From NCBI GenBank assembly GCA_021791795.1, contig JAJYVX010000002.1, positions 21,841-62,068 of the forward strand: 40,228 bases of DNA. The letters are read 5' to 3'. A model generated the notes under the pieces. It worked only from the letters and a program-made list of their open reading frames with translations, did no database searches and was not told the DNA's origin. Made by a program: the position numbers and the translations under genes. Shown one piece after another: positions 3,603-31,038 of this stretch (position 1 is the first letter of the stretch; the number at the start of each line of letters is the position of its first letter). This DNA comes from Actinomycetes bacterium (GTDB lineage: Bacteria > Actinomycetota > Acidimicrobiia > Acidimicrobiales > Bog-793).

Positions 3603-4942
3603 ACGTGGCGGTGAAGGTCGTCCTCGGCCTGGTGATCGCCGCAACCGTCGTGCTGCGGCTCGTGAAGGCGCGCAGGAGGCGCCGGGCGGCAGGAGATGTC
3701 GCCAGGTCCCCGATCTCATCCAGCGCGGCGCGCCTCGTCCTTCGCGCCACTGCGCGCAGCGACACACTGCTCATCGCCGAGCGTGAGATCCGTGAGCGGC
3801 TGCGCGGGCGGCTGTTTCGGGCGGTGACGCTCCTCATCCTCGGCATCGTGGCTGCCGCGATCCTCATACCTGCGCTGTCCAAGAGCAATTCCGCGCCCGT
3901 GAGAGTTGGTCTCGTGTCGCCTGCCGAGCCGGGCGCTCGTGCAACTGTTCTCGCCGCGGCAAAGGCGGTCGGCGTGAGCGTGACGATCGTGAACGAGGTG
4001 AGCATCACGGCGGCCCGCGCGGGAGTCTCCTCCGGGGGAATCGACGTCGCGGTCTCCGGGCTCTTCACCATCCTCGTCGCCAGGGCGATCAGCCCGAACG
4101 ACTCGTCGGACACGGCACAGCTCGTCGGTGCGCTGTCGTCGTTGCTCGGAAAGACGGCGGCAGAGGCGCGGGCGCACCTCACACCCTCCCAGGCGGCCCA
4201 GCTGGCTTCGGCACGCCCTGTGCCCGTCGTGAGCCTCGAGAAGAAGGAAGCCACGCCGCCGAACCCCCTGAAAGGGTCGTCGATCATCGGCACGATCCTC
4301 GTCTTCATCATGCTCAGCCAGTACTGCGGCTGGACCCTCATCGGTGTTCTCGAGGAGAAGTCGAGCCGGGTTGTGGAGGTCCTCCTCGCGGCCGTCCGCC
4401 CTATACAGCTCCTCGGCGGCAAGCTGCTCGGCATCGGCCTCCTCGCCCTCGCCCAGGCGGGGCTCATAGTCGTCTTCGCCGTCGTTCTCGGCAAGGCTGT
4501 CGGCTCGACCCTGCTGCAGGGCGCCGAGCCGGAGGTGCTCTGGACCTCGCTTCTCTGGCTCGTCCTCGGGTACGCCTTCTACAGCTGGCTCTATGCCGCA
4601 GCCGGCTCGATGGCGGAGCGCCAGGACCAGGTGCAGGCCCTGGCGCTCCCGCTCAGCATCCCGATGATCATCGGGTACATCGTGACGCTCACGGCCGCAA
4701 GCACTGGTAATGCATCTGTTTTCTTCCAGGTGCTCGCGTACCTGCCCCCCACAGCGCCCTTTGCCATGCCGGTACTCCTGGCGTTGAAGGGGGCGACCTG
4801 GTGGCAGTTCGCTCTGTCCGTCGTGCTCATGGTGCTGAGCACGGCCGTGCTGGCGAAGCTCGCTTCGACCGTCTATCGCCGCGCGGTGCTGCGTACGGGC
4901 CGGCGCGTGCGGCTCGGCGAGGTGCTCGGGCGGAGCGGTTGA
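3599..4942 (+). CDS. ABC-2 type transporter permease (NatB-like)
   Basis: Multiple hydrophobic segments; EEKSSRVVEVLLAAVRPIQLLGGKLLGIGLLALAQ is typical of ABC-2 permeases; 4-nt overlap with the ATPase gene. Confidence 0.9.
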   Translation: MNVAVKVVLGLVIAATVVLRLVKARRRRRAAGDVARSPISSSAARLVLRATARSDTLLIAEREIRERLRGRLFRAVTLLILGIVAAAILIPALSKSNSAPVRVGLVSPAEPGARATVLAAAKAVGVSVTIVNEVSITAARAGVSSGGIDVAVSGLFTILVARAISPNDSSDTAQLVGALSSLLGKTAAEARAHLTPSQAAQLASARPVPVVSLEKKEATPPNPLKGSSIIGTILVFIMLSQYCGWTLIGVLEEKSSRVVEVLLAAVRPIQLLGGKLLGIGLLALAQAGLIVVFAVVLGKAVGSTLLQGAEPEVLWTSLLWLVLGYAFYSWLYAAAGSMAERQDQVQALALPLSIPMIIGYIVTLTAASTGNASVFFQVLAYLPPTAPFAMPVLLALKGATWWQFALSVVLMVLSTAVLAKLASTVYRRAVLRTGRRVRLGEVLGRSG

Positions 4943-4985: not shown

Positions 4986-6020
4986 TCAGCCTGCCAGGGC
5001 TTGGGAGCGCGACCGTGCTCTCGCCGCCGACTCCTCGAGGTCAGACACGGCGAGCATTGCCATCTCGGCGAGCGCTTCCGGTATGGCGGCCAGTCCGCCT
5101 GTGGCGACGTCGTCGATCTCGAGCGCCGCCTTGACGGCCCGGTTCGCATAGTCCCTCGCGACCTCTGCTGCCGAGGACACGCCGGGCGACGAGGCGACGA
5201 GGTGGCGAGCAGTCTCCTTCTCCTCGTCTGTGAGGGGCTGGCCGAGCAGGCTCGCCAGCCTCGGCCCGACGACGCGGTCCGCCAGTGCCCGCTGCACCGG
5301 GAGCGTGTAGATGCCCTCGACCAAGTCCTGCCCGGGCGCCTTACCGAGCTCCTCCTCTGTCGCGATGACGTCGAGGACGTCGTCGCGTATCTGGAAGACC
5401 ATTCCGAAGGCCTCCCCGAAGGCCGTGAGCCCATCGGTCGTGGCCGGATCGAGCCCGCTGCAGAGAGCCCCTATCCGGCACGCGGTACCCATGAGCGCGG
5501 CGGTCTTGTCGGAGATGGCTTGGAGGTAGTCGGGTTCGGTTCGGTCGATCTGGAAAGCCGCGCGGACCTCGGAAACCTGCCCCTGGCACAGCCTCGCCAG
5601 CGTCGCCGCGAGCAGGCCTGCGACCTCTGTCCCGAGGCTCGCAGCTATCTCCGCAGACCGCGCGAGGAGGAAGTCGCCTGCGACGATGGCGATCAGGTTG
5701 CCCCATCTGGCGTTGACGCTCTCCACGCCTCGCCGCCGGGTCGCCTCGTCCATGACGTCGTCGTGGTAAAGGGATGCCAGATGGACGAGCTCGACGGACA
5801 CGCCTCCGAGGAGGATGGCCTCGTCGACCTCCTTTCCGGCGAGCATCGGGGCCATGATCGTGAGGGAAGGTCGCAGGCGCTTTCCGCCCGCCGCTATGAG
5901 ATGCCCGGCCACCTCGTTGAGGAACTGGTCGTCGCCGAGGACGGAGTCCTTCAGGCACGCCTCGAGGCGCGCCAGGTCGCGGTCGTGGACAGGCAAGGCG
6001 AAGAGGTCCGGCTTGCTCAC
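4986..6020 (-). CDS. polyprenyl (long-chain isoprenyl) diphosphate synthase
   Basis: Two Asp-rich motifs: LYHDDVMDEATRRRG and QIRDDVLDV; GGKRLRPSLT. Confidence 0.93.
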   Translation of the reverse strand: MSKPDLFALPVHDRDLARLEACLKDSVLGDDQFLNEVAGHLIAAGGKRLRPSLTIMAPMLAGKEVDEAILLGGVSVELVHLASLYHDDVMDEATRRRGVESVNARWGNLIAIVAGDFLLARSAEIAASLGTEVAGLLAATLARLCQGQVSEVRAAFQIDRTEPDYLQAISDKTAALMGTACRIGALCSGLDPATTDGLTAFGEAFGMVFQIRDDVLDVIATEEELGKAPGQDLVEGIYTLPVQRALADRVVGPRLASLLGQPLTDEEKETARHLVASSPGVSSAAEVARDYANRAVKAALEIDDVATGGLAAIPEALAEMAMLAVSDLEESAARARSRSQALAG

Positions 6021-24769: not shown

Positions 24770-25999
24770 GTGGCCCAAGCCCGATCCTCCGTCGGCGTCG
24801 CCGCGCCGGGTGCGCTTTCGCGGCGCCTCGTCGTCGTGCTCGCGGTAGCGGTCGGGGTTTCGGTCGCGAGCAACTACTACGCGCAGCCGCTGCTCGCGAC
24901 GATCCGGCACTCCTTCGGCGCGGGTGCAGGTGAAGCCGGGCTCGTCGTCACGGCGTCCCAGGTCGGCTATGCGCTCGGGCTGGTGCTCTTGCTGCCGCTC
25001 GGGGATCTCATCGAACGCAGGCGCCTCGTAGTCGTCATGTCCGGCGTGACGGCACTCGCTCTCATCGGAGCAGCGTCCAGCCCGAGCCTCGGGTTCCTCT
25101 TTTCTGCAGCAGCTCTCGTGGGTGCCACGTCCGTCGTCGCCCAGGTGTTGGTCGCGTTCACGGCTTCGCTCTCGTCCGACGATGAGCGCGGGCGGATGGT
25201 CGGCGCCGTCATGAGCGGGCTCCTCCTCGGAATCCTCCTCGCCCGGACGGCGGCGGGCTACATCGCCCAGGCCTCGTCCTGGCGGGTGGTGTACCTCGTC
25301 GCCGGCGCTCTCATGGTCGTCGTGGCCGTCGTCCTCGCGAACTCGCTCCCCGAGCATCGTGAGCAGTCGGGGTTGACCTACCCGCAAATCCTCGGCTCCG
25401 TGTTGCGCATCTTCCGCGAGGAACCCGTCCTCCGCCGGCGGTCGCTCTACGGAGCGTTCTCCTTCGGGGCGTTCGCCGTGCTCTGGACGAGCCTCGCCTT
25501 CCTGCTGGCGGCGCCGCCCTACCACTACGGCTCGGGCACGATCGGCCTCTTCGGGCTTGTCGGCGCAGCGGGCGCCGGGATGGCGTCGATCGCCGGCCGT
25601 CTCGCCGACCGCGGACTGCAGGTGGTGGTGACGATGTCCACGGCCGCGGCGATGCTCGCCGCCTTCTTCATCCTCTGGGCCGATCCGAGGTCACTCCTCC
25701 CCCTCCTCGCCGGCATCGTCATCCTCGACCTCGGCTGCCAGGGCCTCCACATCTCCAACCAGAGCGAGATCTACAAGCTCGTCCCGAACGCCCGCAGCCG
25801 GGTGAACGCCGCGTACATGACCGGCTACTTCGTCGGCGGCACGCTCGGCTCAGTCGGTTCGGCCTTCTGCTACCAGAGCTTCGGTTGGGGAGGGGTTTGC
25901 GGGCTCGGGGCAGGTTTTGCCGGGCTCGCCGTGCTCCTCTCGCTGTCCGAACCTCGCTTCACCGCCCGCCGGGCGGCGATCGCAGCCGCCGGGACCTAG
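24770..25999 (+). CDS. MFS transporter
   Basis: About 12 hydrophobic segments; SNYYAQPLLATIRHSFGAGAGEAGLVVTASQVGYALGLVLLLPLGDLIERRRLV. GTG at 24770 preferred because the ORF-track start (24683) lies inside CIRCE copy 2. Confidence 0.88.
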   Translation: MAQARSSVGVAAPGALSRRLVVVLAVAVGVSVASNYYAQPLLATIRHSFGAGAGEAGLVVTASQVGYALGLVLLLPLGDLIERRRLVVVMSGVTALALIGAASSPSLGFLFSAAALVGATSVVAQVLVAFTASLSSDDERGRMVGAVMSGLLLGILLARTAAGYIAQASSWRVVYLVAGALMVVVAVVLANSLPEHREQSGLTYPQILGSVLRIFREEPVLRRRSLYGAFSFGAFAVLWTSLAFLLAAPPYHYGSGTIGLFGLVGAAGAGMASIAGRLADRGLQVVVTMSTAAAMLAAFFILWADPRSLLPLLAGIVILDLGCQGLHISNQSEIYKLVPNARSRVNAAYMTGYFVGGTLGSVGSAFCYQSFGWGGVCGLGAGFAGLAVLLSLSEPRFTARRAAIAAAGT

Positions 26000-26277
26000 A
26001 GCGCCCCTCCGGCGACGGCGGGCACGATGCTCATCGTCTGGCCGTCGTGGACGTCGGTGTCGAGGCCCTCGAGAAAGCGGACGTCCTCGTCGCCGACGAA
26101 GACGTTCACGAATCGCCTGAGCGAGCCGTCGGCGTCGAGCAGCCTCTCGGCCACCCCCGAGTACTGCGAGTCGAGCGAGGCGATCATCTCCCGCACGCTG
26201 CCTGCGGGCAGGGCCACCTCGCCGGCCCCGCCCGTAAGGGACCGCAGCTGAGACGGGACGCGGATGGTGACGCTCAT
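25996..26277 (-). CDS. MoaD/ThiS-family ubiquitin-like sulfur carrier (CysO/MetO-like), C-terminus AVAGGAL
   Basis: MSVTIRVPSQLRSLTGGAGEVAL...QYSGVAERLLDADGSLRRFVNVFVGDEDVRFLEGLDTDVHDGQTMSIVPAVAGGAL; resembles mycobacterial CysO; ATG overlaps the upstream gene stop. Confidence 0.92.
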   Translation of the reverse strand: MSVTIRVPSQLRSLTGGAGEVALPAGSVREMIASLDSQYSGVAERLLDADGSLRRFVNVFVGDEDVRFLEGLDTDVHDGQTMSIVPAVAGGAL

Positions 26278-27521
26278 TCGACGCCTTCCCGCGCCAGCGC
26301 TTCATAGACGGCCTCGAGCGACGGGGCGACCGTCGGCGGTAGGCGCAGATGCCCGGCGAGGGCCTCGACGGTCTTCAAGCCGTTCCCGGTCACGTATGCG
26401 ACGACCCGCTCGTCGCTGCGCACGACGCCTGCTCGGGCGAGCTTGCGCAGGGTGGCGATCGTCACACCGCCCGCCGTCTCGGCGAAGATGCCCTCGGTCC
26501 GCGCGAGGAGGTGTATGCCGTCCACGATCTCGTCGTCGCTCACGGACTCGATCACCCCGCCGGTGCTGCGGGCGACCTCGAGGGCGTACCAGCCGTCGGC
26601 CGGGTTCCCGATCGCGAGCGATTTCGCGATGGTCGACGGCTTGACGGGCTGTACGACGTCAGCGCCCGCCCTGAACGCCGTGGCCACTGGCGAGCAGCCG
26701 TCGGGCTGGGCGCCCGAGACGCGCACGGCTCCGGTCTCCCGTCCGGCCACGAGCCCGAGCTCCACGAGCTCGCCGAAGCCCTTGTGGATCTTCGTCATCT
26801 GGCTGCCCGAGGCGATCGGCACGACGACATGGTCGGGCAGCTCCCAGCCGAGCTGCTCGGCGACTTCGAAGGCGAGGGTCTTCGAGCCTTCCGAGTAGTA
26901 GGGGCGCAGGTTCACGTTCACGAACGCCCAGTCCTCCCGCTCGTTGGCGAGCTCCGCGCAGAGCCGGTTCGCGTCGTCGTAATTGCCGTCGAGGGCGACG
27001 AGAGAGGCGCCGAACACGGCGGTCGTGAGCAGCTTCACGCTCTCGAGATCGTGCGGCACGAAGACGACGGCCTGCATGCCGGCCGCGGCAGCGTGTGCGG
27101 CGACCGAGTTGGCGAGGTTTCCTGTCGACGCGCAGGCGGCGACTTTGAAGCCGAGCTCGCGTGCCTTCGTGAGGGCGACCGAGACGACCCTGTCCTTGAA
27201 CGAACCCGTCGGGTTGCGCGTGTCGTCCTTTATGTAGAGCTCGCCGAGACCGAGCTCGGATGCCAGGCGGTCAGCCCGCACGAGCGGCGTCATCCCTGCT
27301 CGCAGGCTCACCGGCGCCCGGTCGTCCACCGGGAGGAGCGCGGAGTAGCGGAACATGTCGGCAGGCCCGCGGGCGATCGACTCTCGGGTGACCTCGCCAC
27401 GCTGGGCGTCCCGGTCGTAGTGCACCTCGAGCGGGCCGAAGCACCGTTCGCAGACATGGAGGGCGGCGACGGGATAGAGCGCCCCGCACTCCTTGCAGAC
27501 AAGCTGATCGGCGAAACTCAT
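26274..27521 (-). CDS. thrC: threonine synthase-family PLP enzyme (ThrC-like; proposed MetM-type homocysteine synthase)
   Basis: N-terminal CxxC pairs (CKECGALYPVAALHVCERCFGPLEVHYD), PLP motif DDTRNPTGSFKDRVVSVAL, CASTGNLANSVAAHAAAAGM; SAM-I riboswitch upstream. Family assignment firm; substrate is inference. Confidence 0.92.
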   Translation of the reverse strand: MSFADQLVCKECGALYPVAALHVCERCFGPLEVHYDRDAQRGEVTRESIARGPADMFRYSALLPVDDRAPVSLRAGMTPLVRADRLASELGLGELYIKDDTRNPTGSFKDRVVSVALTKARELGFKVAACASTGNLANSVAAHAAAAGMQAVVFVPHDLESVKLLTTAVFGASLVALDGNYDDANRLCAELANEREDWAFVNVNLRPYYSEGSKTLAFEVAEQLGWELPDHVVVPIASGSQMTKIHKGFGELVELGLVAGRETGAVRVSGAQPDGCSPVATAFRAGADVVQPVKPSTIAKSLAIGNPADGWYALEVARSTGGVIESVSDDEIVDGIHLLARTEGIFAETAGGVTIATLRKLARAGVVRSDERVVAYVTGNGLKTVEALAGHLRLPPTVAPSLEAVYEALAREGVE

Positions 27522-27531
27522 CGGATCTCCT

Positions 27532-27631
27532 CTCATCGGTCGGGCGTTGGCACCTGGTTCCCACACCGGGGTGGGGAGCTGGTTGTCGCGGCGTCAAAGG
27601 GCCCGTCCCTCAGCCGCTCTTGATGATGAAG
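27532..27631 (-). promoter_or_regulatory. SAM-I (S-box) riboswitch in the leader of the threonine synthase-like gene
   Basis: Minus-strand RNA: cttcatcATCAAGAGcGGctGAGGGACgGGCCCtttGAcGCCgcgaCAACCagctccccaccccggtgtgggaaccaGGTGCcAAcgcCcgaccgatgag. Matches S-box conserved blocks; P1 (UUCAUC/GAUGAG), P2 (GCGGC/GCCGC) and P3 (CCCAC/GUGGG) form. Confidence 0.92.
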
Positions 27632-27635
27632 TCCG

Positions 27636-27641
27636 AGTGTA
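27636..27641 (-). promoter_or_regulatory. candidate -10 box (TACACT) for the riboswitch transcript
   Basis: TACACT on the minus strand 5 nt before the first P1 base region, placing the start of transcription close to the riboswitch 5' end; no good -35. Confidence 0.4.
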
Positions 27642-27690
27642 GAGCGCGGCGAGCCGGGTGTGCACACGCGGTGCCTATCGTGTCCGCGAC

Positions 27691-28494
27691 ATGGCTCCGA
27701 TAGCTGAGGCTCGTTCCCGTGTGGCCCGCTTCCGCCACGAGCAGTTCCGTGCCCGCGATCTGAGGGAGGCGAAGGGCACCGCGACGGTCACCGTGTTGAT
27801 CCCGGCGCGGGACGAGTCGAGGACCATCGGCCCGATCGTCCATTGCGTCCGCCGCGAGCTCTGTGCGCCCGGCGGAGCCGGACTCGTCGACGACCTCGTC
27901 GTCGTCGACGACGCCTCGAGCGACGACACGGCCGCGGTGGCCGCCGCGGCCGGAGCAGAGGTGCTCGCCGGCCCGGGGGTGGGAAAGGGCGGTGCCATGA
28001 GCCTCGCCCGGGGAAGAGGGGACCTGGTCGTCTTTCTCGACGGCGATGTGACCAACTTCGGCCCGCACTTCGTCACGGGCGCGCTCGGTCCGCTCCTCTT
28101 CTGCCGCGACGTCACGCTCGTGAAGGGCGCCTACGTGCGCGAGCCGGCGTCCCGCCTGGCGCCGCCCGCCGGTGGGGGGCGGGTGACCGAGCTCGTAGCG
28201 AAGCCGCTCGTCTCCCTTCTCTTCCCCGAGCTCTGCACGCTTGCCGACATGTCACAGCCGCTCGCCGGCGAGACGGCGGTGCGCCGGGAGGTCCTCGACG
28301 CCGTCGCCCTCGAGCCTGACTACGGGGTCGAGATCGGTCTTCTTATCGACGTGGCGAGGAGGTACGGGACCTCGGCCGTGGCCGAGGTCGACCTCGGGGT
28401 GCGCCAGCACCGCAACAGACCGCTCGGCGAGCTCTCTCACCAAGCCAGGCAGGTCATGGAGGCGATGCTGTCGCGAGCGGGGGTGATCACGTGA
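27691..28494 (+). CDS. gpgS: glucosyl-3-phosphoglycerate synthase
   Basis: TVTVLIPARDESRTIGPIV; LVVVDDASSDDTAAVA; GKGGAMSLA; LVVFLDGDVTNFGPHFVTGALGPLL; KPLVSLLFPEL; MSQPLAGETAVRREVL; YGVEIGLLID. Confidence 0.93.
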   Translation: MAPIAEARSRVARFRHEQFRARDLREAKGTATVTVLIPARDESRTIGPIVHCVRRELCAPGGAGLVDDLVVVDDASSDDTAAVAAAAGAEVLAGPGVGKGGAMSLARGRGDLVVFLDGDVTNFGPHFVTGALGPLLFCRDVTLVKGAYVREPASRLAPPAGGGRVTELVAKPLVSLLFPELCTLADMSQPLAGETAVRREVLDAVALEPDYGVEIGLLIDVARRYGTSAVAEVDLGVRQHRNRPLGELSHQARQVMEAMLSRAGVIT

Positions 28495-28557
28495 GCGGGG
28501 GTTCCGGCGTGCGCGGGGTTCCGGTGTGAGCGGGGTTCCGGTGTGAGCGGGGGCAGG
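28473..28557 (+). repeat. 17/18-bp degenerate tandem repeat (GTGAGCGGGGTTCCGGT) spanning the gpgS stop and the GT20 start
   Basis: Units at 28473, 28491, 28509, 28526 and a partial unit at 28543, read directly. Confidence 0.85.
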
Positions 28558-29973
28558 CCGAGACTCGTCGTCGCGTCGAACCGCGGCCCGTTCACTCTCG
28601 AGGAGCGCAGTGACGGTTCGGTTGCTCTGCACCCCGGTGCCGGCGGCCTCGCCCCTTCGCTCGCCGCCGCGCTCGCCGGGAGGACCGACACCGTCTGGGT
28701 GGCCGCAGCCTTGAGTCCTGCCGACCGCACGGCAGCCGGCCGGTCGGAGGACGTCGCCGTCGAGTCGGATCAGAGCGGCCTCGCGCTGCGCTTCGTCGAC
28801 ATCGACGACGAGACCTTCCGGAGCGCCTACGACGTGGTCGCGAACGCCACGTTGTGGTTCTCGTTCCATGGGCTCTTCGACGCGTCGAGGAGGCCGCTCT
28901 TCGACCGCCGCTTCTACGAGGCCTGGGAGAGGTACCGCCTCTACAACCTTGCCTTCGCCGCGGCGGTCGACGCGGTGGCGGCACCCGGAGCGGTGGTGCT
29001 CGTGAACGACTACCACCTGCTGCTGACGGGCTCCGCCCTGGCGCAGGCGCGGCCCGACCTCTTCACTGTCCACTTCTCTCACACTCCCTTCCCGGGCGCC
29101 GAGGAGCTCGAACTGCTGCCCCCGTCGGTACGCGCCGAGCTGCTCGGCTCCATGAGCTGTTTCGGGGCGTGCGGCTTCCACACGGCGCGGTGGGCGGGCG
29201 GCTTCCGCCGATGCGCGGACGCGGCCGGGATCGAGGCACCCCCGACGTTCCATGCCGGCCTCGGGGCGGATCTCGAGCGCTTGCGAGCGTTGGCCGGGAG
29301 CGAGGCCGTGGGCCGGCATGCGAGCGCCCTCGAGGAGCGCTTCTCGGGCAGGAGGCTCATCGTCCGCTCGGACCGGATCGAGCTCTCGAAGAACATCCTC
29401 CGTGGCCTCAGGGCCTTCGACCTCGTCCTTCACGAGCATCCGGCACTGAGAGGCCGTGTGACCATGCTCTCTCGCGGCTACCCGAGCCGCGAGGGGCTGC
29501 CCGAGTACCTCGCCTACAGGGCCGAGGTCGAGCACCTGACCGAGCTCGTGAACGAGCGGTGGGCCACCTCGACCTGGACGCCGGTCGAGCTCGACGTCGA
29601 CGACGAGTTCTCGGCGACGGTCGCGGCTCTCATGCGCTACGACGTCCTCCTCGTCAATCCCGTCCGGGACGGCATGAACCTCGTTGCGAAGGAGGGGCCG
29701 AGCCTGAACACGCGCGACGGGGTGCTCGTGCTCTCGCGCTTCGCCGGGGCCTACGAGGATCTCGGTGAGGACGCTCTCTCGATCCACCCCTTCGACGTCT
29801 CCGACACCGCTGATGCTCTCGTGCGGGCGCTCGAGATGCCCGCGGGAGAGCGGAGCCGCCGTGCGGCGGCGCTCCGCAGCAAGGCGCAGCACCTCGCCCC
29901 GGCGGCGTGGCTCGAACAGGTGCTCTCCGAAGCGCGCCTGTCGGGGCGGGCTGTCACACGCCCCTCTTGCTGA
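28543..29973 (+). CDS. otsA: GT20 family glycosyltransferase (trehalose-6-phosphate synthase-like)
   Basis: LVVASNRGPF, LVNDYHLLL, SDRIELSKNILRGLRAFDLVL, VNPVRDGMNLVAKEGP, GVLVLSRFAGAYEDL. Confidence 0.85.
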   Translation: MSGGRPRLVVASNRGPFTLEERSDGSVALHPGAGGLAPSLAAALAGRTDTVWVAAALSPADRTAAGRSEDVAVESDQSGLALRFVDIDDETFRSAYDVVANATLWFSFHGLFDASRRPLFDRRFYEAWERYRLYNLAFAAAVDAVAAPGAVVLVNDYHLLLTGSALAQARPDLFTVHFSHTPFPGAEELELLPPSVRAELLGSMSCFGACGFHTARWAGGFRRCADAAGIEAPPTFHAGLGADLERLRALAGSEAVGRHASALEERFSGRRLIVRSDRIELSKNILRGLRAFDLVLHEHPALRGRVTMLSRGYPSREGLPEYLAYRAEVEHLTELVNERWATSTWTPVELDVDDEFSATVAALMRYDVLLVNPVRDGMNLVAKEGPSLNTRDGVLVLSRFAGAYEDLGEDALSIHPFDVSDTADALVRALEMPAGERSRRAAALRSKAQHLAPAAWLEQVLSEARLSGRAVTRPSC

Positions 29974-30784
29974 GAAGTTCGGCGGCGGCGACGAGGACGT
30001 CTCGCACCTGGGACGGGTCGACGAGGACGTAGTCGGCCTGCTCGAGCAGCTGTGGCGGCGCCTCCGTGCTCGAGACGGCGACCCGGAGCACGCTCGCCCG
30101 CCCGGTCGCGGCAACCTCGCCGAGGGCCTCGAAACCGAGCAGGTCGCTCACGTCGTCCCCGAAGAACAGGAACCTGAGGAGGCGTCCGGACCCGTGGGGC
30201 GCGAGGCGGCCGACCCACTCGAGGAGAACGCTCCCCTTGTCGATCCCGACCGGAGGCACGAGCTCGACGCTTGCCCTGCCCTTCCTCAAGGCCAACCCGC
30301 TCGCCACGGCTGCCCGGTCGGCCAGGGCGGTGGCAGCGCGCGCCACGGCGGCGGGATCCGCCGCCCTGCGCCAGTGGAGCGTGAAGCCGAAGACCTTGTC
30401 CTCGAGCTCGGATCCGTCCGGCATCGAGGAGAGCACGAGGCCGCGGGCATGCTCGACGGCCGGCTGCCAGGCAAGAGCCGCATCCGCCGTCTCGATCGCG
30501 CCGCCGGACGAGTGCTCGAGACCGTGCAGCCCGTAAGCCTGGATCGCACCGGGCATGTCGCCGAGGCGCAGCTTCGAGACGATGAAGCCTGCCGGGCGCC
30601 CCGACACGACGCAGACGACCGCGAGGTGTGCCGAGAGCTCGCGCAGGGCTTCGACAGCACCCTCGAGCGGGGCCGCGGCCGCCGGGTCCGTGACGACGGG
30701 GGCGAGGGTCCCGTCGAAGTCGGTGAAGAGCGCTGTGCGGGCGGGGTCCTCGACGAGAAACGCGACGATCGAGTCGTGGCTCAA
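29954..30784 (-). CDS. otsB: trehalose-phosphatase-like HAD phosphatase (OtsB family)
   Basis: LFTDFDGTLAPVVTDP, VVCVVSGRPAGFI, GLHGLEH, FFGDDVSDLLGFEAL. TTG at 30784 overlaps the upstream TGA stop (TTGA). Confidence 0.87.
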   Translation of the reverse strand: MSHDSIVAFLVEDPARTALFTDFDGTLAPVVTDPAAAAPLEGAVEALRELSAHLAVVCVVSGRPAGFIVSKLRLGDMPGAIQAYGLHGLEHSSGGAIETADAALAWQPAVEHARGLVLSSMPDGSELEDKVFGFTLHWRRAADPAAVARAATALADRAAVASGLALRKGRASVELVPPVGIDKGSVLLEWVGRLAPHGSGRLLRFLFFGDDVSDLLGFEALGEVAATGRASVLRVAVSSTEAPPQLLEQADYVLVDPSQVRDVLVAAAELLSKRGV

Positions 30785-31038
30785 CGTGGTGGCTGGAGAG
30801 CCGCTCCTCCGGAGATGCGGGCCTTCTCGCGTAATCTCGTCCTCCGCTCCAGCCGCTTCATCACGAGGGGGTCGTACTCGACAGCCTCCGGCGAGCCCGC
30901 GAGCCGCCGCAGGGCGGCGTAGTAGGCAGCCGGAGTGCAGCCGAGTCGCTCGCGTATCGCACGCTCCTTCGTCGGTGACGAGAGCCACCAGTCACGCTCG
31001 ATGTCGAGGATCGTGCGCTCCCTCGAACTGAGTGCCAT
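30781..31038 (-). CDS. DUF3263-like small DNA-binding-type protein
   Basis: MALSSRERTILDIERDWWLSSPTKERAIRERLGCTPAAYYAALRRLAGSPEAVEYDPLVMKRLERRTRLRE; HTH-like composition. Confidence 0.82.
   Translation of the reverse strand: MALSSRERTILDIERDWWLSSPTKERAIRERLGCTPAAYYAALRRLAGSPEAVEYDPLVMKRLERRTRLREKARISGGAALQPPR

Follow-up and report, generated by a model that had tools for sequence, protein, structure and literature searches.

A SAM-I riboswitch whose P1 helix borders the Shine-Dalgarno sequence of a predicted metM-metO pair in an acidimicrobial bacterium

We analysed a stretch of 40,228 nucleotides from an acidimicrobial actinomycete (the window), in which the leader on the minus strand is very probably a translational SAM-I OFF switch with almost no expression platform, controlling the gene pair metM-metO. 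The register between the P1 helix of the aptamer and the Shine-Dalgarno sequence (SD), and its conservation, were established by comparing 80 leader sequences. For the window switch itself we infer the binding of SAM, the transcription start, the repression and the activity of the enzyme in this organism. The features are collected in Table 1.

Table 1. Features of the leader and of the genes downstream of it in the window
Feature	Position	Strand	Basis
Predicted -35 element, TGCACA	27659..27664	-	matches the TTGACA peak of relatives, 36-38 nt before P1
Predicted -10 element, TACACT	27636..27641	-	[TC]ANNNT in relatives; here at -15; 17-nt spacer
SAM-I (S-box) aptamer, RF00162	27530..27629	-	cmscan, 55.1 bits, complete model
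P1 5' strand, UCAUC	27622..27626	-	cmscan alignment; UCAUC/GAUGA conserved in relatives
P2 loop CGGG, 5' half of pseudoknot	27602..27605	-	sequence; covariation with J3/4
J3/4 CCCG, 3' half of pseudoknot	27541..27544	-	sequence; covariation with P2 loop
P1 3' strand, GAUGA	27533..27537	-	cmscan alignment; UCAUC/GAUGA conserved in relatives
SD, AGGAG	27527..27531	-	sequence; register in relatives
metM homologue, 415 aa	26274..27521	-	PF00291, NF006050/TIGR00260; MetM clade, support 100/99
metO-like ThiS-fold sulfur carrier, 93 aa	25996..26277	-	PF02597; best PDB match CysO-type 3dwg

The aptamer and the register between P1 and the SD

The preliminary description had recognised an S-box core in the minus-strand leader and named the RF00162 and SAM-IV models as the check. 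The cmscan search bore this reading out with a full-length RF00162 (SAM-I) match (model positions 1-108, E 3.4e-10), whose score of 55.1 bits lies above the gathering cut-off of 44.4 bits. RF00162 was also the best model of the SAM clan for this stretch, RF00634 being no better, which rules out SAM-IV or another SAM class for the window leader, and even at permissive settings no other plausible RNA family was found there. RF00162 matches nowhere else in the genome, a 3.45-Mb acidimicrobial assembly that is 92% complete. We rejected the notion that the divergent S-box RNAs form a variant class: their core changes preserve pairing and their scores exceed the SAM-I cut-off. The pseudoknot between the P2 loop and J3/4 is demonstrated on comparative grounds, as the paired position is G-C in 89 of 139 aptamers, C-G in 11, A-U in 10 and U-A in 4; with kinship ignored, the compensation (G/A versus C/U) gives a Fisher p of 6e-13.

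Five uninterrupted standard pairs make up P1 in the window, UCAUC (27626-27622) with GAUGA (27537-27533). The 3' strand had been described as GAUGAG, and its last letter has to be given up, G27532 being mismatched with A27627 at the sixth position. P1 had also been said to adjoin and overlap the purine run that holds the SD. This is correct for the run as a whole; AGGAG itself begins 1 nt past the end of P1, so the helix overlaps the purine run and not the SD. The start codon (27521-27519), AGGAG at 27527-27531 and the 5-nt spacer between them are placed as in that description. The ATG lies 11 nt from the 5-bp P1 and is separated by 8 nt from the aptamer end.

The register set consists of the window and 79 other leaders. 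In 62 of these 80 the first SD nucleotide is at the same time the last paired one of P1, so that the two share it, and in 73 the SD starts within -2..+1 nt of the P1 end. The SD lies 2-19 nt beyond P1 in seven leaders, one of which (L070) was misparsed and is tight by eye, its SD beginning on the last P1 nucleotide. The SD is never wholly inside P1, and the window, having a 1-nt gap, is not the tightest case. Four leaders (L083, L084, L103 and L107) have an 8-bp P1, and there the helix is 3 bp longer and the SD is shifted by exactly 3 nt, thus the register is kept; in a fifth 8-bp leader, L098, the gap is wider. Fisher's test of 5-bp versus 8-bp leaders gives 2e-6, although three of the four register-keeping 8-bp leaders look closely related and may therefore represent, with the fourth, perhaps only two independent changes. 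At the sixth P1 position 14% of the 80 leaders of the order have a standard pair, whereas in a comparison set of 93 RF00162 hits drawn from other orders and classes the share is 89%, which argues that P1 has been trimmed at the point where the SD starts. On the same figure we rejected an extension of P1 into the SD.

Predicted promoter and the proposed mode of repression

Aligning the upstream DNA of 79 leaders on P1 brought out two peaks separated by a 17-nt spacer: TTGACA at -37 and a TANNNT-like motif at -14/-13. TTGACA with at least five of six matches is found at -37 in 20 of the 79 leaders (mean 1.1 per position), [TC]ANNNT at -14/-13 in 55, and an A at -1 relative to P1 in 68. A promoter at a constant distance from P1 implies that the mRNA starts at P1; the predicted start lies at or within ~3 nt of the helix, in the window at about 27627-27629. 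The putative -35 element of the window matches the consensus at 4/6 positions and was therefore missed by the consensus scan. Since the window elements are weak alone, the promoter call there rests on the comparison with relatives.

The leader had been described as having no room for a separate terminator, and the block as working with no distinct anti-SD element; both claims agree with our data. No intrinsic terminator-like site was found in 25900-27800. No conserved anti-SD was found in the variable P3 region of the 80 leaders, where the longest complement to the SD averages 3.55 nt versus 3.25 nt in shuffled sequences. One would argue that in a translational OFF switch SAM could also free a hidden anti-SD, by an exchange within the aptamer or with the early coding sequence. 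The P3 loop of the window does contain AGCUCC, with four nucleotides complementary to the SD, and when P1 is enforced the folding prediction pairs part of the SD with the early coding sequence. Additionally, the SAM-I met riboswitch of Xanthomonas campestris, which likewise acts on the translation of methionine genes, differs from the window leader in having a separate anti-SD hairpin and in sensing tRNA-fMet (PMC7270179). However, the complementarity barely exceeds that of the shuffles and CCTC or CTCC occurs in the variable region of only 21 of the 80 leaders, thus we regard a hidden anti-SD as unlikely.

Folding predictions give the P1 of the window a probability of ~0.13 in the absence of ligand, and enforcing the helix costs ~1.3 kcal/mol there (median 5.0 over the set). 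The predicted mean accessibility of the SD is 0.46 with P1 and 0.55 without it in the window, and the corresponding medians of the set are 0.37 and 0.43. As the accessibility is nearly the same in both states, base pairing alone does not explain repression, and any block would have to be mainly steric. Taken together with the lack of a terminator and of a conserved anti-SD, this makes occlusion of the 30S subunit by the adjoining helix the best explanation. Direct occlusion of the ribosome by P1, with no separate anti-SD, thus appears well supported at the level of sequence comparison.

In the mechanism that we propose, RNA polymerase would start at or a few bases from the P1 5' strand, so that the mRNA would open with the aptamer. 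Once SAM is bound, the 5-bp P1 would close and hold the mRNA 5' end beside the SD; the 30S subunit could then not pair with the SD, and metM-metO would not be made. The ligand-free P1 would rarely be formed, and SAM would pay the cost of forming it. At low SAM the unstable helix would open and free the SD. The obstacle would be the adjoining helix occluding the 30S subunit, plus the shared base in those leaders that have one.

An action of SAM mainly on transcription or mRNA stability, through Rho-dependent termination after blocked translation or through protection of a 5' end held in P1, is very unlikely: the predicted 5' end does lie inside P1 and coupling to Rho is documented as a secondary effect of riboswitches that act on translation (PMC10907184), but there is no intrinsic terminator, an mRNA stabilised by SAM would have the wrong sign, and a conserved SD-P1 register would not be needed. 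Returning to occlusion by P1, we put forward tentatively a broader view, that the SAM-I switch may have been driven to its limit in this order of actinobacteria. The promoter would set the start of transcription on the 5' strand of P1 and the SD would begin on its 3' strand, the 5' end of the mRNA would be the regulatory strand of a purely steric clamp with no platform, and this arrangement would have evolved from platform-bearing relatives.

Identity of the downstream gene pair

Family models label the 415-aa gene a threonine synthase, and NCBIfam equivalog models score above their cut-offs. A cyanobacterial homologue with threonine synthase and deaminase activity is described in a 2025 paper (PMC12172450), thus bifunctionality is possible. 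Nevertheless, we consider it improbable that SAM here controls an ordinary threonine synthase. Each of 13 genomes tested has two threonine-synthase-like enzymes (one genome has a distant third), and in the tree the window gene groups with the Streptomyces-type gene in one clade, whereas the second copy of each genome (ThrC) falls in the other. Both clades are well supported (100/99), and all 13 genomes have one member of each; the Streptomyces-type member was taken as MetM from its riboswitch and metO and is not a named sequence. The second copy of the window genome stands beside an ORF which we take to be a homoserine dehydrogenase. The metO-like gene overlaps the end of metM, and in relatives this linkage to a sulfur carrier is constant, with metO adjoining metM in 80 of the 80 fetched, most of them named Acidimicrobiales or Acidimicrobiaceae. 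The Streptomyces orthologue is also reported to be a homocysteine synthase: Hasebe et al., as cited in PMC12172450, described it as MetM, which acts with the carrier MetO, and the citing paper adds that in S. albulus a SAM riboswitch precedes metM. In S. lividans, RF00162 was found before SLIV_16930-16925, then labelled threonine biosynthesis (PMC8079986).

By phylogeny and linkage, the 415-aa gene is a member of the MetM clade. The two genes are probably a methionine-biosynthesis pair, with homocysteine synthase activity predicted in this organism. Clade membership together with a sulfur carrier in all 80 relatives makes homocysteine synthesis the most likely target of the switch, and a SAM-sensing leader fits this better than threonine synthesis. 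The automatic label is thus corrected from threonine synthase to likely homocysteine synthase, and with such a target, acting with MetO, SAM would feed back on methionine synthesis.

The window MetM has 56% protein identity to that of a Streptomyces-like genome (G219). The window MetO ends in ...AVAGGAL, therefore trimming would be needed; most relatives end in GG, and a few carry one or two extra residues. The window genome has one JAB peptidase and two Cys/Met-metabolism PLP enzymes. The search for MetX in this genome gave one weak 70-residue match only, an apparent absence which is no more than a hint in an assembly that is 92% complete. Elsewhere in the window, a trehalose-phosphate synthase gene (Glyco_transf_20; 28543-29973, +) and a gene that reads as trehalose-phosphatase (29954-30988, -) lie tail to tail with an overlap of ~20 nt.

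Known systems and related leaders

Direct translation attenuation, defined by a distance of at most 15 nt between P1 and the start codon, was described by Barrick and Breaker in 2007, with SAM-I as a main user and with the highest frequency in Actinobacteria and Cyanobacteria (PMC2258182). The start codon lies at most 15 nt from P1 in the window (11 nt) and in 76 of the 80 leaders, and the ribosome binding site is at the P1 3' side as in that class. However, the SD is inside the stem there, while here it abuts P1 and shares at most 1-2 nt with it, and the promoter-P1 spacing is also conserved. The Streptomyces metM-metO riboswitch has the same aptamer family and an orthologous gene pair. In the G219 type (L173-L175), 66-86 nt separate the aptamer end from the aligned MetM start, against 8 nt to the ATG in the window, although a seemingly real ATG, judged by eye, lies nearer in these three. 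The preQ1-I riboswitch of Thermoanaerobacter tengcongensis, where only the first base of the ribosome binding site is within the aptamer, is a precedent (PMC10907184) with another ligand and another fold, an H-type pseudoknot.

Direct attenuation by the SAM-I P1 (PMC2258182) and a SAM riboswitch before Streptomyces metM (PMC12172450) are thus already known. What appears to be new is the lock between SD and P1 with compensating P1 length, and the fusion of promoter and P1; a limited literature search found no report of a fixed SD-P1 register, of the promoter-P1 spacing or of the contrast with platform-keeping relatives.

Other riboswitches were observed alongside. Three same-order SAM-I aptamers with P1 directly beside the SD (L046, 4906-5004; L054, 779-867; L194, 2955-3051; all on the minus strand) precede genes for unknown proteins and a TPR protein, with no evident methionine link. 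Locus L045 of genome G083 carries SAM-IV, SAM-I and SAM-IV at 5906-6011, 5161-5251 and 4012-4118 (-), within 2 kb, and each of the three precedes a small gene of its own. Two of these small genes have a match to the peptide-binding chaperone family TY-Chap3, an odd target for SAM control. A sample of 79 genomes of the order yielded no SAM-IV. Contig DAHVAJ010000065.1, 46 kb long, holds the riboswitch-metM-metO unit twice (L081 and L126).

Outside the order, metM riboswitches mostly lie further from the gene, with a gap of ~31-250 nt that holds a separate platform, and within the same class this gap often contains a GAGGCGCUC...GAGCGCG hairpin. Close spacing recurs there in single cases, for example before metM (L180) and before a metX-like gene (L031). 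Nature thus offers a series on one gene, with platforms of mostly tens to hundreds of nucleotides outside the order and acidimicrobial leaders that lack them. Whether the ribosome can be stopped by nothing more than a helix that ends at the first nucleotide of the SD could be cleanly tested on the metM series.
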